64,000 bases of DNA. It comes from Pseudanabaena sp. M53BS1SP1A06MG (lineage in GTDB: Bacteria; Cyanobacteriota; Cyanobacteriia; Pseudanabaenales; Pseudanabaenaceae). This document shows positions 319 through 48,286 of the stretch, piece after piece. Position 1 is the first letter of the stretch, and every line of letters starts with the position of its first letter. The notes beneath the pieces are model-generated. The model ran no database searches and was not told the DNA's origin. It saw only the letters and a program-made list of their open reading frames with translations. Location of the stretch: assembly GCA_020404105.1 (NCBI GenBank), contig JADBWH010000015.1, positions 33,785 to 97,784 on the forward strand, in the 5' to 3' direction. Made by a program: the position numbers and the translations under genes.

Positions 319-1923
319 TTAGACTTCACCCATTGCTACCATTTGGATCGCACGGGGCATTGCAGGGTCGAAACCTCCCATATCCCAAGAATTAGGATCT
401 TTGGGATCGACTAGCGAAAGCTTGTAGGGAGCCAAGGTCACATAGATTGCTTTTGCATTAGCATTAACCTTGCGGCGATATTCTGCCAAAGCTTCACTAG
501 GATGACGACGACCTGCCCAAGATTCGGAATCAGTCCAGAAGCAGAACACATCCGCATAGAACTTATTCTTAATCGCCCAATCGTAAGCCACCGACGCATC
601 CGTACCACCGAAGTTTTGGCTTGATGCCTTTTGCATTGCCGATGTAAAGGAATCCTTTTTGGTGATTCCCAAATCGCGGAAGTCGGTTGCAAATCCACGG
701 ATCGCATAGTTGGTTTCCGCCTTCACCGTTGCCAAAGCCATCGTTGCCGCGATTTCGCAGCAGGTCAAGCCAATGGAACTAACGGTGTAGTAAGCCATCG
801 AACCTGACACATCGATCGCATGGAGGAAAGTCGCACCCGTAGGCGCGATCGCATCGAAGGACATTTCCAGAGCAGTTTCCAGAATATCGACAATGCGCGG
901 AATTGGTTGCCAAGTCTTTTGGCTACGTCCGAGCGCACCGCCCGATTGATAGGTCTTGAGAGCTTTCAAAACATCAATGGGGTGAATGCGTCCCTTCTTC
1001 AGGCGATCGCGACAGTTCAATACATTAGCAACATGCTTCAAGTTATCCTTGTTTTTCGCAGTCAAGACACCAAGTTCCGTCAAAGAACCAAGGTTCCGCA
1101 ATAGCGCACCGATGGGCATTTCGTTAAAGAGCAACTGCCATGCACGCACATCCATCTGTCCGATGGGAGCCGCCATTTCATGGGTGAGTTTACCCTTGGC
1201 GATCGCTTCATGGGTTTTGTCAGGGTGACGCTTGAGCCATTCATACCACCAGATTTGCGCTAGCGCATCCGATGGAATTTTTGAAGGAAGTTCATCCCAA
1301 CCCTGGACCACCCATTGATATAGCGCTTGTTGATCGTCGGTTGCAGGCTTGACGTGAAACAAACGCAACGCATCACGGTGCGAGAAGCCTTGCCGTTGTT
1401 GGTACTTCAGCAATTGGTAGGCTAGCGCATTGGTGTCGGGATTGGAGAGCCATGCCTTACCGCTTTCACGAATGACTTTACCGAAGCCACGCATGGACTT
1501 GGTGTAGTTCATCCATTCATAGAAGTGGCTACCTGTGCGGACAACTTGAGGAAAGATTTCCATGAAGTTCCGTTTTGCCGCTTGACTGTCACCCATCGAT
1601 AGCAAGACTAGAGCCAGAATGGGAGCGCTGTTATTCACCGCACGACCATCGCTAGCATAGAGAATTTCGCTCGCCACGCGAGCGGGATTTTCAGCAACGC
1701 ATTTCTGCACCGTATCAATGAAATCGGTGGACAGTTCGTGCTTGCCAGCGTAGTAGGTACTTTGAGCCGTACCAATCAGCAAGCAACGACGCAACATGCG
1801 CCAGATACCCGCATCAAAGGCAAAGCCACCCGATCGCCCTTGGATCATTTCGGCTTCACGACCTGCGATCGCTTGAGTTTGAGGAGTACCTTTGGGTTTC
1901 TGGAATAAGAATTTATATGACAT
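319..1923 (-). CDS. rsr: Ro60 / TROVE-domain RNA-binding protein (Rsr-like)
   Basis: A 534-residue homologue of the Ro 60-kDa autoantigen and bacterial Rsr, ring-shaped proteins that hold misfolded or structured RNAs and Y RNAs and assist their decay or maturation. Residues about 15-340 match the HEAT-like TROVE domain; residues about 360-534 form a von Willebrand A domain. A complete MIDAS is readable: DVSGS at 370-374, the Thr of NFGGTDAS near 440 and the Asp of FWTDSES near 466. Length is normal for the family. The start follows GGAG (GGACGGAGAATGTC then ATG). Immediately upstream on the same strand lie five tRNA-like RNA genes (1989-2965), the arrangement in which bacterial Y RNAs are found next to rsr. 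No rtcB or rtcA is visible nearby. Confidence 0.93.
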   Translation of the reverse strand: MSYKFLFQKPKGTPQTQAIAGREAEMIQGRSGGFAFDAGIWRMLRRCLLIGTAQSTYYAGKHELSTDFIDTVQKCVAENPARVASEILYASDGRAVNNSAPILALVLLSMGDSQAAKRNFMEIFPQVVRTGSHFYEWMNYTKSMRGFGKVIRESGKAWLSNPDTNALAYQLLKYQQRQGFSHRDALRLFHVKPATDDQQALYQWVVQGWDELPSKIPSDALAQIWWYEWLKRHPDKTHEAIAKGKLTHEMAAPIGQMDVRAWQLLFNEMPIGALLRNLGSLTELGVLTAKNKDNLKHVANVLNCRDRLKKGRIHPIDVLKALKTYQSGGALGRSQKTWQPIPRIVDILETALEMSFDAIAPTGATFLHAIDVSGSMAYYTVSSIGLTCCEIAATMALATVKAETNYAIRGFATDFRDLGITKKDSFTSAMQKASSQNFGGTDASVAYDWAIKNKFYADVFCFWTDSESWAGRRHPSEALAEYRRKVNANAKAIYVTLAPYKLSLVDPKDPNSWDMGGFDPAMPRAIQMVAMGEV

Positions 1924-1988
1924 GACATTCTCCGTCCCGTAAGGGAAAGTTAAAGAGAACTTCCTTCACCTCGACCAAAGAGAAGGAA

Positions 1989-2126
1989 TCGGCAGGGTAG
2001 GACTCGAACCTACAGGATCTTGCGATCGATTGAACCCAGATAACCCTCTACAGTTCGGTCTTTGCAGACAAGGGTTCCCATAAAGGCATTAAATCAACTG
2101 CGTCTACCAATTTCCGCCACCTGCCG
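1989..2126 (-). ncRNA. tRNA-like RNA A: Leu(UAA)-type tRNA with 53-nt insert
   Basis: Read on the minus strand: acceptor CGGCAGG pairs perfectly with CCTGCCG (discriminator A, no encoded CCA), D-arm GCG...CGC with TTGGTAGA, long variable arm GATC-GCAA-GATC, T-arm GTAGG-TTCGAGT-CCTAC. The anticodon stem GTTGA/TCAAT is split by 60 nt instead of 7. Removing 2088-2036 (53 nt) leaves loop TTTAAGT, anticodon UAA, and an 85-nt leucine-type tRNA. The insert holds GTCT-GCAA-AGAC (plus strand 2058-2069), the strands CCTTGTC and GACCGAA, an AACCCT/AGGGTT stem, and the shared motif AGGGTTATC. It is far too short for the classical group I intron of cyanobacterial tRNA-Leu(UAA), and sits at 36/37 rather than U34/A35. 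The first pair is C1-G72, unusual for leucine tRNA. Either an intron-bearing tRNA or a tRNA-shaped Y-type RNA serving the adjacent Ro60. Confidence 0.72.
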
Positions 2127-2190
2127 AAAATGTGAACATCTAAAAGCTAATTGCTAAAAGCTAATCGCTAATCGCCAAAAACTTTTAGAG

Positions 2191-2310
2191 AGGGTGGAAT
2201 GGGAATCGAACCCACATCTCGCGACAAAGGGGGGAGATCGTTAGAAGCGATAACCCTGAGTCTGCGTCCCTTACGGGCAAAGTGCGTTCTACCAGTTGAA
2301 CTATCCACCC
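2191..2310 (-). ncRNA. tRNA-like RNA B: Arg(UCU)-type loop in expanded anticodon arm
   Basis: On the minus strand the ends are tRNA: acceptor GGGTGGA pairs with TCCACCC (discriminator T), D-arm GTTC...GAAC, T-arm GTGGG-TTCGATT-CCCAT. Between D- and T-arms there are about 70 nt instead of about 22. They contain CTTTGCCC-GTAA-GGG, then ACGCAGA, then CAGGGTTATCG, a CTTCTAA loop (typical of tRNA-Arg UCU) and a CGAT return strand, then CCCCCCTTTGTCGCG. A single excision does not give a normal tRNA: about 32 extra nt precede the anticodon arm and about 15 follow it. The return strand CTTTGTC lies 3' of the loop, whereas in element D the same sequence lies 5'. Best described as a tRNA-shaped structured RNA; charging or decoding is doubtful. 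Confidence 0.65.
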
Positions 2311-2467
2311 CAAGATTGAGGGTAGAGCTAAAGAAGTAGAGATTTTGAGTAATGAAGTGCCACACTACGCGCAACACTCCATTAATTCTTTAGGACTACC
2401 GATTTGGAATTTTGATTTTGTGCTTTGTTAAAGAAAGATGGCAACCAGCAGGCAAAACCTCTAGTTT

Positions 2468-2629
2468 AGGAAGGGATGGGAGTCGAACCCAATCACCTCA
2501 TGGAGGTGATGCAACCAAAGCGATAACCCTCACCAATTCGTCCCTTGAATTAACGTGTGGTGCGAAGCACCACACATTTTTATCTTGGGCAAAGAGAAGT
2601 TTCGATTGCGATCGCATAACTATCTCTCC
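2468..2629 (-). ncRNA. tRNA-like RNA C, enlarged by an inserted hairpin, probably degenerate
   Basis: The 3' half is clear on the minus strand: CTTTGGT loop, stem-loop CACCTC-CAT-GAGGTG, T-arm TTGGG-TTCGACT-CCCAT, CCCTTCC and T. The core reads CTTTGCCC, later GGGACGAATTGG and GAGGGTTATCG as in element B. The loop of the CCC/GGG stem is expanded by the hairpin GTGTGGTGC-TTC-GCACCACAC, related to the dispersed hairpins of this genome. The proposed 5' half starts GGAGAGATAGTT and has a D-loop containing GCGATCGC; its acceptor pairs imperfectly with CCCTTCC and the T-stem has a T-T mismatch. It is therefore probably a decaying copy; the 5' boundary is uncertain. Confidence 0.5.
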
Positions 2630-2657
2630 AAAACATTACTCAAAATCAAACTCCCAA

Positions 2658-2782
2658 TTGACGGAGAGGGACTCGAACCCTCGACACTTGGCGTTTCAGG
2701 CGATAACCCTAAATCTGCGACCTTTGCAGGTAAGTGACGACAAAGGATGTTTTCAATGCTCTACCCACTGAGCTATCCGTCA
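2658..2782 (-). ncRNA. tRNA-like RNA D: Phe(GAA)-type tRNA with 52-nt insert
   Basis: The cleanest member. On the minus strand: acceptor TGACGGA/TCCGTCA, D-arm GCTC-AGTGGGTA-GAGC, then A26 and TTG; the frame resumes as GC-CTGAAAC-GCCAA-GTGTC and T-arm GAGGG-TTCGAGT-CCCTC. Removing 2753-2702 (52 nt) restores anticodon stem TTGGC/GCCAA, loop CTGAAAC with GAA, and a canonical 73-nt tRNA-Phe. Boundaries are unambiguous because flanking bases do not allow sliding. The insert lies at 29/30, inside the anticodon stem. It contains CCTTTGTCG, ACCT-GCAA-AGGT, CGCAGA and TTTAGGGTTATC. Pair T1-A72 and the lack of encoded CCA are noted. Intron-containing tRNA and tRNA-mimicking Y-type RNA are both compatible with the sequence. 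Confidence 0.75.
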
Positions 2783-2840
2783 ATGTATTCAATTTAAATT
2801 TTGCCGTAGGCAAAATTTAAAATAAGAGTTTTGATTTTGG

Positions 2841-2965
2841 GATAGGTGCTACTTGTTCGCAAGTAGCACCTATCTGGTAGCAATAACCCTGAATGCTTCA
2901 GCCCAAATAGGCAAGTCATTGCATAAAGGAATTCAGCAGTTTGCGAGGCTGCATCTCCTTTCCTA
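2841..2965 (-). ncRNA. tRNA-like RNA E, degenerate fifth copy
   Basis: On the minus strand it keeps the core of the family: ACTTGCC, TATTT, GGGCTGAAG, then CATTCAGGGTTATTGC, with GCAAT/ATTGC closing the core. The 5' side (GGAAAGGAGATGCAG...CTGC) is only vaguely like an acceptor and D-arm and lacks the GG of the D-loop. The 3' side has no T-arm; instead a perfect 15-bp hairpin with a four-base loop (2841-2874) begins a few bases after the core. It looks like a copy whose 3' half was replaced by a hairpin repeat, or possibly a differently built relative. It is the farthest from the Ro60 gene and would be transcribed first. Confidence 0.45.
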
Positions 2966-3185
2966 ATTGATATACAAATACTGGAGCAGTACTTGTAATC
3001 GCAATTAGACTAGGCGTTCTAAGCGCTTGAACCATGTTGCACTACATTTATACTACACGTACTACAAGAATGCAATAGCGATCGCCAAAAATGTTACAAC
3101 CTATTCATTAAGTAGTACATTGATGTAAATTATGCTCAAAGTGAGATGATTGCATTTCCTGTTCTCTGGAACTTTAGAGATAACT
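2966..3185. other. Divergent intergenic region between the RNA array and the nuclease gene
   Basis: About 220 nt without a gene. It should hold the promoter of the minus-strand RNA/Ro60 locus and that of the plus-strand nuclease gene. Several GTAGTAC/GTACTAC-like short repeats occur (for example TACTACACGTACTAC and AGTAGTACATTGATGT) and could bind a regulator, but none fits a site I can name. A TATAAA lies on the minus strand near 3045-3050 without a convincingly spaced -35. Confidence 0.35.
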
Positions 3186-4373
3186 ATGCTTGATTTACAG
3201 AAATTGATGGGACAGATGCAAGGGATGTCTGAACAATTGCAGAAAGAAGCTCAGCAATTGACTGCTAAGCTCGATCACGCAGAAACTTTATTTACTGAAG
3301 CCATTGCCAATCAATCTCATCTTTGTCAGCATAGTGAGCTATGGCGCGATCGCTTCATGTTTAATTGCGCGGAACCAGCAGAACCACTAAGGCAAATCCA
3401 GGCAATAGCACCTATAACCACACCACATATTGTTCTTGCTACCGATGGCTCACAGATTGCCCCTAGCCGCCATGAAATCGCCTATTGCTATTTGATTAAT
3501 ATCGGTCGAGTTGCCATTTACTATAATTCTGGCATTTATCCATTACTCGATAATGTTCCTGAAGTCTTTTATAAAACGGAAGATCTCTATAAAGCGCGTC
3601 AATGGGGAATTCAGACAGAACAATGGATGACCCTCAAGCGCACTGTTGCTGAGAATGTCACCCTCGCGAATTTAGCGATCGCTACAATAGCGACTTACCC
3701 TCAGTCACCAATACTCGCTTTTAGCGATGGAGCCTTAGTCCATTGGGAACTGGATGAGATTCCTGCCGATGCGCGATCTCAGCTTTTACCAGATATTCTG
3801 TCGGCATGGGATAACTTAAAAGCACAACGGATTCCTCTCGCAGGCTATATCAGCGCCCCACGCGCGGCGGAGGTAACTAATTTTTTGCGCTTGCAAATCT
3901 GTCCTTTTGAGCAACCCGATTGTCATACCCACTGTTCTGCAAAACCGCTAGATGCTGCACCCTGTAGCCAAATTCAACCCTTGCGCGATGGCACATTATG
4001 GAGTCGTTTATTAAAAGTTGGCGAATGTAGTCCTCTCTGGCAAAGTCAGGCGAGAATTTTGGAGGAATATGGCGAACATCAGATTTATTTTTGTTATCTC
4101 CATGTAGGTTCAGAAATTGCCAGAATCGAGATGCCCGCTTGGACTGCCCTTGATGCAGAAATGCGATCACAAGCTTTGCGAATCATTCTCGCCCAAGTCC
4201 AGAAAGGTTATGGCTATCCTGTGGCACTGGCGGAGGCACATAATCAAGCCGTAGTTACGAGTAGCGATCGCCGTCGTTTTTTTGCAATTTTAGAACAGCA
4301 CATGGTGAAGTCAGGTTTACGCAATATCACCACCTCCTACAAAGAATCTCGCAAGCGGAGCAGCATCGCCTAA
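3186..4373 (+). CDS. NurA-domain nuclease family protein
   Basis: 395 residues from the ATG at 3186; a TTG at 3150 would add 12 unconserved residues. The protein starts with an amphipathic coiled-coil stretch (about 1-45), then ATDGSQ with the candidate catalytic Asp near residue 87 and SDGAL near 181, followed by SAPRAAEV and a C-terminal YPVALAEAHNQAVV segment. This pattern is that of the NurA domain, a Mn-dependent nuclease fold that in archaea works with HerA in DNA end resection; cyanobacteria carry it without a linked HerA. A cysteine cluster (CPF...CHTHC...C) around 235-262 may be a metal site. It is divergent from the Ro60/RNA locus, so a link to RNA or DNA handling there is possible but only a guess. 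Confidence 0.7.
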   Translation: MLDLQKLMGQMQGMSEQLQKEAQQLTAKLDHAETLFTEAIANQSHLCQHSELWRDRFMFNCAEPAEPLRQIQAIAPITTPHIVLATDGSQIAPSRHEIAYCYLINIGRVAIYYNSGIYPLLDNVPEVFYKTEDLYKARQWGIQTEQWMTLKRTVAENVTLANLAIATIATYPQSPILAFSDGALVHWELDEIPADARSQLLPDILSAWDNLKAQRIPLAGYISAPRAAEVTNFLRLQICPFEQPDCHTHCSAKPLDAAPCSQIQPLRDGTLWSRLLKVGECSPLWQSQARILEEYGEHQIYFCYLHVGSEIARIEMPAWTALDAEMRSQALRIILAQVQKGYGYPVALAEAHNQAVVTSSDRRRFFAILEQHMVKSGLRNITTSYKESRKRSSIA

Positions 4374-4496: not shown

Positions 4497-5713
4497 TAAA
4501 TAGCTTGTATCAGAAAATCTAACAATCGATGGGCAAGTTCTAATTTAGAGCAAAGTGGTGTGGAGAGAACATTACCATTTTGATGAATTAAGGTGGCTTG
4601 ATTAGTATCTGTACCAAAACCAGTTTGGGAACTATTCACCGCGTTAGCCGCGATCGCATCTAATCCTTTCCGAATTAATTTATCTTTTGCCGCAGTCACA
4701 ACTTCTTGATCTGTGCCAGTTTGTGCCGCAAAACCCACTAAGATTTGGTCAGGACGTTTACGACTAGCTAGATCAGCCACGATATCAGGAATATATTCTA
4801 GTTCAAGATTTAAGGGTAATTCTGATTTTGGTAACTTGTAATCACTGGTTATTTTAGAGCGCACATCACCAATTGCAGCAGCAGCGATCGTCATATCCGC
4901 AAAGGGAAATTCATCGATCATCGCTTGGTGCATTTCCGCTGAAGTACTAACTACTCGCACCGATGGCGTTACTTCTCCAACTGGAAGAGGGGAATTAGAT
5001 GTGGTGATGAGGGTAACAGTTGCACCGCGATGGATGGCAGCTTTAGCGATCGCTATTCCCTGCTTACCAGTTGATGGATTACCGATAAAGCGCACAGAGT
5101 CAATAAATTCGCGAGTTCCACCTGCATTAACTAAAATCTTTTTCCCTTTTAAATCCTGTTTACCATGAGTAAACAGAAAAGATTCGATATATTCCATAAT
5201 TATTTTTGGTTCCGCCATGCGCCCAGTACCCACAGCGTCACAGGCGAGAATACCATCCGTTGGTGCGATCGCTGCATAGCGAGAATCTTTTAATAATTTC
5301 TGCCAATTTTCCTGCACAGTGGGTTGTAGCCACATGGTCGTATTCATTGCTGGAGCAAAGAGAATTGGGCAACTGGAAGCAAGAACTGTATTTGTCAGTA
5401 AATTATCTGCCATACCATAGGCAAGCTTCGCTAAAGTATTTGCGGTCACAGGCGCAAGCAAAAATACATCAGCCCATTCTGCGAGTTCAATATGCAGGGG
5501 TCTTCCATTAGTTGGTTGCCAAAAATCAGCATCAGTATAAGCTAGTTGACGTGATAACGTGGCAAAAGTAAGGGGCGTAACAAATTCAGCAGCCGATCGC
5601 GAGAGGATCACCCGCACTTCTATCCCCCATTTCGCCAAGCTAGATACCACTTCACAAACTTTATAAGCAGCAATACCTCCAGATATGCCAATGAGTACAT
5701 GATTTACAGGCAT
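4496..5713 (-). CDS. coaBC: Bifunctional phosphopantothenoylcysteine decarboxylase / phosphopantothenate-cysteine ligase
   Basis: A fused CoaC-CoaB enzyme (Dfp) making 4'-phosphopantetheine for coenzyme A. The N-terminal flavodoxin-like CoaC half shows ISGGIAAYK, the APAMNTTMW substrate-clamp motif and the LACDAVGTGRM motif with its catalytic Cys; the CoaB half begins at KKILVNAGGTREFID and has the RFIGNPSTGKQG stretch. Length is normal (405 aa). AGGAG lies 9 nt before the ATG at 5713, so that start is preferred over an ATG 9 nt upstream that touches the AGGAG. The stop TAG uses the last base of an 81-bp mobile element; without the insertion the same codon would read TAA, so the protein is unchanged. 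Confidence 0.96.
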   Translation of the reverse strand: MPVNHVLIGISGGIAAYKVCEVVSSLAKWGIEVRVILSRSAAEFVTPLTFATLSRQLAYTDADFWQPTNGRPLHIELAEWADVFLLAPVTANTLAKLAYGMADNLLTNTVLASSCPILFAPAMNTTMWLQPTVQENWQKLLKDSRYAAIAPTDGILACDAVGTGRMAEPKIIMEYIESFLFTHGKQDLKGKKILVNAGGTREFIDSVRFIGNPSTGKQGIAIAKAAIHRGATVTLITTSNSPLPVGEVTPSVRVVSTSAEMHQAMIDEFPFADMTIAAAAIGDVRSKITSDYKLPKSELPLNLELEYIPDIVADLASRKRPDQILVGFAAQTGTDQEVVTAAKDKLIRKGLDAIAANAVNSSQTGFGTDTNQATLIHQNGNVLSTPLCSKLELAHRLLDFLIQAI

Positions 5714-47983: not shown

Positions 47984-48021
47984 ATTCTGTAACTCGCAGA
48001 TATGGGCAAATTCAACTAGTT

Positions 48022-48160
48022 CTAGCGGGCATCCTGACTTTGGTAATAGCAATATTGTTTTCCTTCGGAAAACGATATTACTGAGGTATCCTTTACAGTT
48101 GCGGTACAGCGTTGGACTTTCACCAAACTTTCCCCATTTTGGAATTAAGCAAATACAAAC
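48022..48160 (-). promoter_or_regulatory. Cobalamin (B12) riboswitch
   Basis: On the minus strand, in order: GGGGAAAGTTTGGTGAAAG, TCC, the junction core GCTGTACCGCAACTGTAA, a peripheral hairpin (AATATCGTTTTCC/GGAAAACAATATT), and the B12 box AGTCAGGATGCCCGC. These are the consensus parts of adenosylcobalamin-type riboswitches. It lies 39-177 nt before the hupE-type start and should repress it when cobalamin is sufficient. A separate hairpin TTAACGG...CCGTTAA (48180-48200) lies just upstream. Confidence 0.92.
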
Positions 48161-48286
48161 GATCTACTTAATTTCACTTTTTAACGGCTGATCCCCGTTA
48201 AAACTAGAACAACTTTATGACTCTACAATAATTCGCATACTTTATGAGTAAATCTTCACAGATTTACAAAGTTGTAGATTGGGGAA

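Follow-up and report, generated by a model that had tools for sequence, protein, structure and literature searches.

Putative tRNA-shaped Y RNAs encoded in an array before a cyanobacterial Ro60 gene

Y RNAs have been described from both vertebrates and bacteria. The Ro60 site with its bulged cytidine is found in vertebrate Y RNAs (PMC4726728, PMC4030889), and the bulged C, the primary Ro60 site, is conserved in the bacterial RNAs (PMC4030889). The bacterial Y RNA YrlA carries a tRNA-like module and is encoded beside Ro60 (PMC8394870, PMC7790460), and its basal stem is built from its own 5' and 3' ends (PMC8394870). Here we describe an array of five RNA elements that precedes a Ro60 gene in a 64,000-nucleotide stretch of Pseudanabaena sp. 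M53BS1SP1A06MG DNA (contig JADBWH010000015.1; the whole stretch is referred to as the window). The array probably encodes mostly tRNA-shaped Y RNAs, circular permutations of the YrlA type, which Ro60 would bind.

The array RNAs and YrlA have in common the Ro stem, a second helix, the T and D arms of tRNA, and a gene adjacent to Ro60. They differ in order. The YrlA consensus (RF02553) opens at the Ro stem with acggCgaAUG (Ro 5' side), followed by the T arm, a short closed hairpin that replaces the acceptor, the D arm and AcUuGucGccgu (Ro 3' side), whereas the array RNAs begin with the acceptor 5' strand and the D arm, continue through CUUGCC, a short loop and GGCCGAnG, and end with the T arm and the acceptor 3' strand. 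The order of Ro 5' side, T arm, D arm and Ro 3' side is not found in them. The array RNAs have a rotated order, a complete acceptor (usually of 8 base pairs), a closed Ro stem and up to five copies upstream of Ro60. By their sequence, the Ro60 site is not formed from their own ends: the stem is closed and the ends lie in the acceptor. When the acceptor is sealed and the loop of the Ro stem is opened, the YrlA order results. In their predicted arrangement, the array RNAs are a circular permutation of the YrlA parts in two main topologies, for which tandem duplication followed by an altered processing phase would be a simple route.

Other known RNAs share fewer of these parts. Vertebrate Y RNAs have the same kind of Ro60 site with a bulged cytidine, but their ends form the Ro stem and they have no tRNA body. 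Ordinary tRNAs share the acceptor, D and T arms; the array RNAs differ from them by the Y domain in the anticodon arm, the 8-base-pair acceptor and an anticodon region that is not kept. Cyanobacterial tRNA group I introns are also inserts in the anticodon arm of a tRNA; the array insert differs in its length of about 50 bases, its variable site, its tie to Ro60, and the lack of an Rfam group I match in the scanned regions. No description of cyanobacterial or permuted Y RNAs was recognised in the accessible portions of the literature; Chen 2014, Wang 2018 and the 2020 review may list some. The array RNAs are likely a variant form within the known Y RNAs, permuted and built on a whole tRNA.

The array and its spread with Ro60

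The initial annotation of the window reported five minus-strand copies of AGGGTTAT(C/T) that run into a complete Ro60 gene, and both the sequence and Pfam bear this out. The five modules (A to E) lie at 2967-1989, with the motif copies falling within 2965-1989. In the following list R1 is a covariance model described below, and the Y domain is the Y-RNA-like part of each element.

319..1923, minus strand: Ro60 gene (TROVE and vWA_Ro60, Pfam), 534 amino acids, start codon 1923-1921
1930..1949, minus strand: leader hairpin CUUUCCC-UUAC-GGGACGGAG, repeating the Ro-type stem, with the Shine-Dalgarno-like GGAG (1933-1930) on the 3' side
1989..2126, minus strand: element E, class II tRNA-like body resembling tRNA-Leu, with acceptor CGGCAGG/CCTGCCG; the anticodon arm carries the Y domain (RF00005)
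2038..2089, minus strand: Y domain of E, Ro-type stem CTTGTC (2072-2067)/GACCGAA (2060-2054), bulged C 2057 (R1, 30.0 bits)
2191..2311, minus strand: element D, tRNA-like body, acceptor GGGTGGA/TCCACCC, type II Y domain (RF00005)
2223..2280, minus strand: type II Y domain of D (R1, 20.9 bits; positions read off the sequence)
2280-2275/2270-2265, minus strand: Ro-type stem of D, loop GTAA
2262-2254 with 2231-2223, minus strand: second helix of D, 7/9 pairs, GUUAUCG between the strands
2470..2629, minus strand: element C, tRNA-like body, acceptor GGAGAGA/TCCCTTC (6/7 pairs), T arm TGGGTTCGACTCCCA (sequence reading)
2592-2587/2544-2537, minus strand: Ro-type stem of C, UUGCCC/GGGACGAA, 42-base loop with its own hairpin (sequence reading)
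2658..2783, minus strand: element B, tRNA-like body, acceptor TGACGGA/TCCGTCA plus T-A at -1/73, type I Y domain (body-scoring script)
2701..2750, minus strand: type I Y domain of B, Ro-type stem 2733-2728/2723-2718, bulged C 2719 (R1, 61.5 bits, E 1.3e-15)
2836..2967, minus strand: element A, Y domain without recognisable tRNA body, then a strong hairpin (fold against shuffles; body-scoring script)
2881..2932, minus strand: type I Y domain of A, the bulge of the Ro-type stem being U 2900, not C (R1, 28.4 bits)

The predicted Ro60 protein has both domains of Ro60/Rsr (vWA_Ro60, E 9e-39; TROVE, E 3.9e-16; Pfam). Its relatives of solved structure include D. radiodurans Rsr and animal RO60 (2nvo Rsr, E 2.6e-78; 9nen RO60, E 7.7e-65; 1yvp, E 6e-64). 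By a hand count on the printed alignment, its K173 and H190 are aligned with K170 and H187 of animal Ro60. K170 is a known Y RNA contact site. H187 is given as essential for Y RNA contact (PMC4030889).

The family was followed in the best 80 of 134 named Ro60 loci, among which those closest to the window's are nearly all from Pseudanabaena. The motif AGGGTTA(T/C) is present in one to five copies at most 1.8 kb upstream of Ro60 in 79 of the 80 loci; in locus L072 it lies downstream of Ro60 only. The covariance model R1 was built from 23 rows from 21 loci of other genomes, the remaining 59 of the 80 loci contributing none. It gave 284 matches at E <= 0.01 in the 716,633 bases of the 80 loci; every locus was matched, and all matches are on the Ro60 strand. 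In the window it scored B, E, A and D, B's score being inflated because one training row (L012:591-640) is identical to B. C had no R1 match and was assigned by sequence reading and its Pseudanabaena counterparts. The shorter pattern AGGGTTATYGCY, with one mismatch allowed, is not specific in the genome (107 matches vs 102 for the reversed pattern).

Presence of the RNA is tied to Ro60 in three overlapping samples of genomes that are related to one another. In an order sample of 38 genomes it was found in 19/19 with Ro60 and 0/19 without, most of these genomes holding a B copy nearly identical to one R1 training row. The class sample gave 60 of 67 Ro60 genomes vs 1 of 321 without a Ro60 match (Fisher p 2e-61), and the phylum sample 24 of 31 vs 1 of 261 others. 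By hand count, 72 of the 74 RNA matches in the phylum sample lie within about 4 kb of Ro60; the exceptions are genome G085 and one copy in G180. As for the seven Ro60 genomes of the class sample without a match, closer search revealed type II copies in G339 and G346, four have Ro60 fragments only, and the Ro60 of G164 is 32% identical.

The initial annotation had named inserts in genomes without TROVE genes as one observation that would tell against it. The class sample holds one such case, G085, a degenerate relic (L169 3325-3374) without bulged stem or tRNA body. The two neighbours of this copy, a dihydroorotate dehydrogenase gene and one for a protein with a similar start, are those at the Ro60 locus L030; therefore Ro60 has probably been lost there and the RNA copy has decayed.

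The array in the window is a member of a real, widespread, Ro60-linked RNA family that extends far beyond it. The gene lies beside Ro60 in 80/80 loci and, in the genome samples, is inherited with it. Copy number and order of modules differ between loci. A single motif copy is present at the G005 locus and in the GC-rich viral contig IMGVR_UViG_3300021057_000025 (L174/L175), which has a full Ro60 and one tRNA-Y hybrid. In Synechococcus (Picosynechococcus) PCC 7002, Ro60 (SYNPCC7002_RS15900) is on plasmid pAQ7 with the leader stem present, and three tRNA-Y hybrids precede it (L186 4390-5000; copies at 4543-4669, 4690-4796 and 4822-4944) in a 611-base gap without a listed gene, in a table that lists no RNA genes. 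R1 scored the first copy at 42.3 bits and the third at 14.4 and did not match the second; the Rfam tRNA model matches the second (47.1 bits) and the third (37.0 bits), each with an insert.

Around the array, the window has a NurA-domain gene (3150-4373, plus strand) that is divergent from it. At locus L022 a NACHT/STAND protein with the effector-associated domain EAD4 is encoded at 577-3447, divergent from the Ro60 array and some hundreds of bases upstream of it. Scans of the window for promoters and terminators found no more than in shuffles. Three ordinary tRNA genes, as counted in the initial annotation, are present (Pro, Ala and Arg; ARAGORN and Rfam), and a cobalamin riboswitch lies at 48007-48177 on the minus strand (38.8 bits).

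The Y-RNA-like domain, the tRNA bodies and the leader hairpin

The initial annotation took AGGGTTAT as the insert; it is instead the 3' edge of a Y-RNA-like domain of about 50 bases. The domain consists of a Ro-site-type stem with a bulged C (CUUGCC-tetraloop-GGCCGAnG), a second helix, and then GUUAUCG. Type I domains are arranged as AUCCUUGUUC ... CUUGCC-GAAA-GGCCGAnG ... GAAUGAGGGU UAUCG. In type II, the strand CCUUGAUUC is shifted downstream and paired with GAAUCGAGG. GGUUAUC after the second helix resembles the human Y4 and Y5 RNAs. The C-G-A that follows the Ro-type stem is nearly invariant in the type I alignment, where the helix with a single bulged C is found; the window copy A has a U bulge. 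The CUUGCC/GGCCGAnG stem with its unpaired C shares the layout of the Ro60 site described in vertebrate and bacterial Y RNAs. The stem is capped by GCAA in B, GUAA in D and GCAA within a U-A pair in E. The GNRA caps first assigned to A, B and D are therefore right for B and D but not for A (AUUU), and E has one as well; C has the 42-base loop.

Pairing was tested in MAFFT alignments against 500 shuffles. In the 23 type I copies (alignment A3), 93.5% of the cells are paired and 8 of 14 pairs are changed on both sides, which no shuffle reached; in the 32 type II copies (A2), relatives with the topology of D, the values are 95.1% and 6 of 14, reached by one shuffle. Rows were chosen by the second helix (candidates with at least 6/8 pairs for type I and at least 7/8 for type II): A3 has 17 of 42 non-redundant type I copies and six others of equal length, and A2 has 32 of 36 type II candidates. 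Since the rows were chosen on second-helix pairing, the independent part of the covariation evidence is the Ro-type stem, in which 4/6 pairs (type I) and 3/6 (type II) are changed on both sides. Among all 285 unselected copies, the second helix is perfect (8/8) in 71, vs a mean of 44 and a maximum of 54 in 30 rounds in which strands were swapped between copies. A loose search found it upstream in 141 and downstream in 112 of the 285, vs shuffled means of 65 and 64, again modest. The excess in unselected copies is real but modest, as expected with near-identical strands.

The tRNA bodies were scored by our own script (acceptor, D arm, T arm and U8) in 290 copies, the 285 and the window's five. 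A score of at least 28 was given to 196 of the 290 copies vs 1 of 241 control positions, and 20 copies have no body. The Rfam tRNA model found 17 matches in the arrays of 11 of 15 loci scanned, and the T and D arms that mark the tRNA-like module of YrlA are present. The tRNA-like bodies of the initial annotation stand for B, C, D and E and fall for A, which has none that is recognisable. B scored 31, with perfect acceptor and T stem; D and E match RF00005 as tRNAs with a long insert (2310-2191, 44.1 bits; 2126-1989, 37.3 bits). The fold of A is better than that of shuffles by 4.96 standard deviations. The T loop has TTC in 150 of the 186 unique scored bodies and A58 in all, both being favoured by the script. 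Bases -1 and 73, which are outside the script, are paired in 172 of the 186 (146 are G-C), giving an acceptor of 8 base pairs, vs 9 of 45 ordinary tRNAs of the window's genome. Such an acceptor is reminiscent of tRNA-His and tRNA-Sec. ACCA is encoded after the eighth pair in 58 of 172 unique bodies.

The anticodon region is variable: 24 different 18-base stretches were found among 46 copies equally far from Ro60, grouped by position and not by tree. The ordinary tRNAs of the genome cover all 20 amino acids, Leu(UAA) included (42 fetched stretches). Removing the insert leaves no kept anticodon loop, and the host tRNA set shows no need for the bodies; therefore they appear to be tRNA-like bodies of different kinds, not decoding tRNAs. 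The different tRNA identities first claimed for the array hold in part. The 5' half of E is Leu-like, its best four matches all being tRNA-Leu, and that of B is nearest to tRNA-Phe; the 3' halves of both point to other tRNAs. Reduced and rearranged forms also occur. In Nostocales there is a form with acceptor, Y hairpin in the place of the D arm, one hairpin and T arm (e.g., L030 5687-5790). In the G180 copy far from Ro60 (L191 2867-2990), whose tRNA part scores 31.3 bits with Rfam, the Y hairpin by our reading apparently splits the acceptor 3' strand and a strong hairpin follows.

A copy of the Ro-type stem is also found in the Ro60 leader. R1 matched the window leader weakly (1960-1927, 9.4 bits, E 2.2), and the leader consensus is UUGCC(C/U)-GNAA-(G/A)GGCCGGGAG directly before the start codon. 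By a loose rule the stem is present in 76 of 80 Ro60 leaders, 5 of 288 leaders of other open reading frames and 141 of 4000 random windows; by a strict rule these become 58/80, 0/288 and 5/4000. By a third rule its 3' side runs into a purine-rich, Shine-Dalgarno-like stretch in 71 of the 80. In 24 chosen leaders the helix has 96.5% of cells paired and 13 doubly changed cells (0/500 shuffles as high), with just two pairs that vary on both sides, which 211 of 500 shuffles reach. Translational self-control of Ro60 through the leader stem is predicted from these sequences.

Weighing the readings

That these are tRNA-shaped Y RNAs, one of the two possibilities raised in the initial annotation, gains support from: i) the predicted stem with the bulged C; ii) the genome-by-genome tracking of Ro60; and iii) the same-strand adjacency to its gene. 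A number of observations weigh against it. Some concern the distribution: the module was not found in G058, G078 and G164, whose Ro60 is 32-36% identical, and R1 found nothing at E below 1 in the Ro60 loci of further phages and a Bosea plasmid, its matches in L179-L182 and L184 having 11-12 bits. Others concern the structure. The loose Ro-stem rule is satisfied by 254 of 285 copies, though 1528 of 4000 random windows satisfy it too, and a second helix of at least 7/8 pairs is found in 217 of 285, a modest excess over the swapped mean of 189 and maximum of 205. Single-sequence folds of 12 whole elements gave every arm in L027 only and most arms in D, L024 and a PCC 7002 copy; the proposed shape was missing in B, C, E, two L030 copies, L046 and the viral copy. 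The fold of C, though better than that of shuffles by 3.97 standard deviations, differs in shape from that proposed. When the domain was folded alone the proposed shape was obtained for A, B and seven relatives but not for E. Window copy A and the Nostocales copies downstream of Ro60 are without a full tRNA body, and all leader rules were drawn up after the leaders had been inspected. Finally, at the thresholds used RF02553 matched neither the array region nor the window's genome nor any of the 15 scanned loci; ordinary YrlA was rejected on this ground, and membership in the Y RNAs therefore goes by parts and not by model.

The same RNAs may be considered as tRNA decoys, which would absorb anticodon nucleases or other attackers of tRNA while Ro60 stabilises them. 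Hughes et al. proposed a competitive-inhibitor role for YrlA (PMC7790460), which would suit a decoy, as would the presence of such RNAs in the viral contig and in a long tRNA array and the side-by-side arrangement of bodies with different tRNA resemblance. Against this, anticodon nucleases attack the anticodon region, and that region varies; the decoy role is unlikely.

A second alternative keeps the ordinary YrlA phase: the transcript would be cut inside the loop of the Ro stem, and each Y RNA would join a copy's 3' half to the 5' half of the copy that follows. A tandem array allows both phases on paper. The acceptor 3' strand often pairs with the 5' strand of the next copy (mean 5.9/7, vs 6.9/7 within a copy, where strands were selected to pair); this does not decide the phase and, being compatible with the YrlA-like reading as well, is a further point against the permuted one. 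In genome G081 (L170 700-4400), 25 ordinary tRNA genes and three R1 matches (weakest E 0.025) lie downstream of a Ro60 of 35% identity, and a YrlA match adjoins such copies (L170 3920-4021). This is the best of the YrlA matches there, all of them sub-threshold, with 38.4 bits vs 69; the two weaker ones span neighbouring ordinary tRNAs, so a YrlA score alone is no proof. Weak YrlA matches at E <= 1, none above the cut-off, were seen in 13 of 14 control genomes. No YrlA match was found in the window's genome or across two neighbouring L022 copies. The phase is disfavoured because single motif copies occur in the viral Ro60 contig and at the G005 locus and because short loops, most of them GNRA, close the Ro-type stem. 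The second helix, moreover, pairs within one copy, and a single body was scored at 14 of 79 loci, where others may have gone unscored. We regard this phase as improbable.

The other possibility of the initial annotation, interrupted tRNAs handled by Ro, has fared poorly. Here the insert would be an intron and the halves would be ligated (e.g., by RtcB) with the help of Ro60, giving extra decoding tRNAs. The insert does lie in the anticodon arm of near-perfect tRNA bodies, its removal from E would leave a UAA anticodon loop, and ACCA follows the eighth acceptor pair in a share of the bodies. Spliced tRNAs are nevertheless very improbable, and were rejected, because the anticodon stretch varies at one array position and the genome has ordinary tRNAs for every one of the 20 amino acids. 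Besides, the insert site differs between copies: anticodon stem or loop, the moved strand of type II, and once, by our own reading, inside the acceptor stem. The 8-base-pair acceptors are unlike those of host tRNAs, and RtcB is absent among the few named neighbour genes, no genome-wide search for RtcB having been made.

Decayed tRNA pseudogenes or a functionless mobile repeat, suggested by the varying copy number and order, are scarcely credible and were rejected in view of the both-side changes in the pairs of the Ro-type stem, the constant strand, the presence tied to Ro60 and the degenerate copy where Ro60 is absent.

Proposed mechanism and meaning

If the array RNAs are permuted, tRNA-shaped Y RNAs, the following steps may be proposed. 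As with tRNAs, processing would trim the transcripts at the tRNA ends, and Ro60 would dock on the bulged-C stem. The tRNA body would serve as a handle for a tRNA-recognising enzyme, which could be a nuclease (e.g., PNPase) or an enzyme that processes or modifies tRNAs, and the array would supply several differently shaped handles. Free Ro60 would shut off its own translation at the stem copy by the Shine-Dalgarno sequence until there is enough Y RNA to occupy it. The full account is tentative: these may be natural permuted Y RNAs, in which a loop-sealed Ro60 stem has been grafted at several places into complete tRNAs of different identities with 8-base-pair acceptors. Made and trimmed as tRNAs, they would allow the Ro60 ring to present a set of tRNAs to tRNA enzymes, the level of Ro60 being set by competition with the stem copy at the ribosome binding site.

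The pAQ7 array of PCC 7002, being in a model strain, is open to deletion and pull-down, and therefore the partners of Ro60 and its predicted self-control are directly testable. The finding bears on why bacterial Y RNAs mimic tRNA and how Ro60 is tied to tRNA-like partners. The mimic here would be an entire tRNA rather than a fragment, with several versions next to one another, and the Ro60 site would be a separable module at different positions of the scaffold. Comparing permutations with the same parts would reveal the key contacts: the bulged stem, the second helix and the tRNA core.

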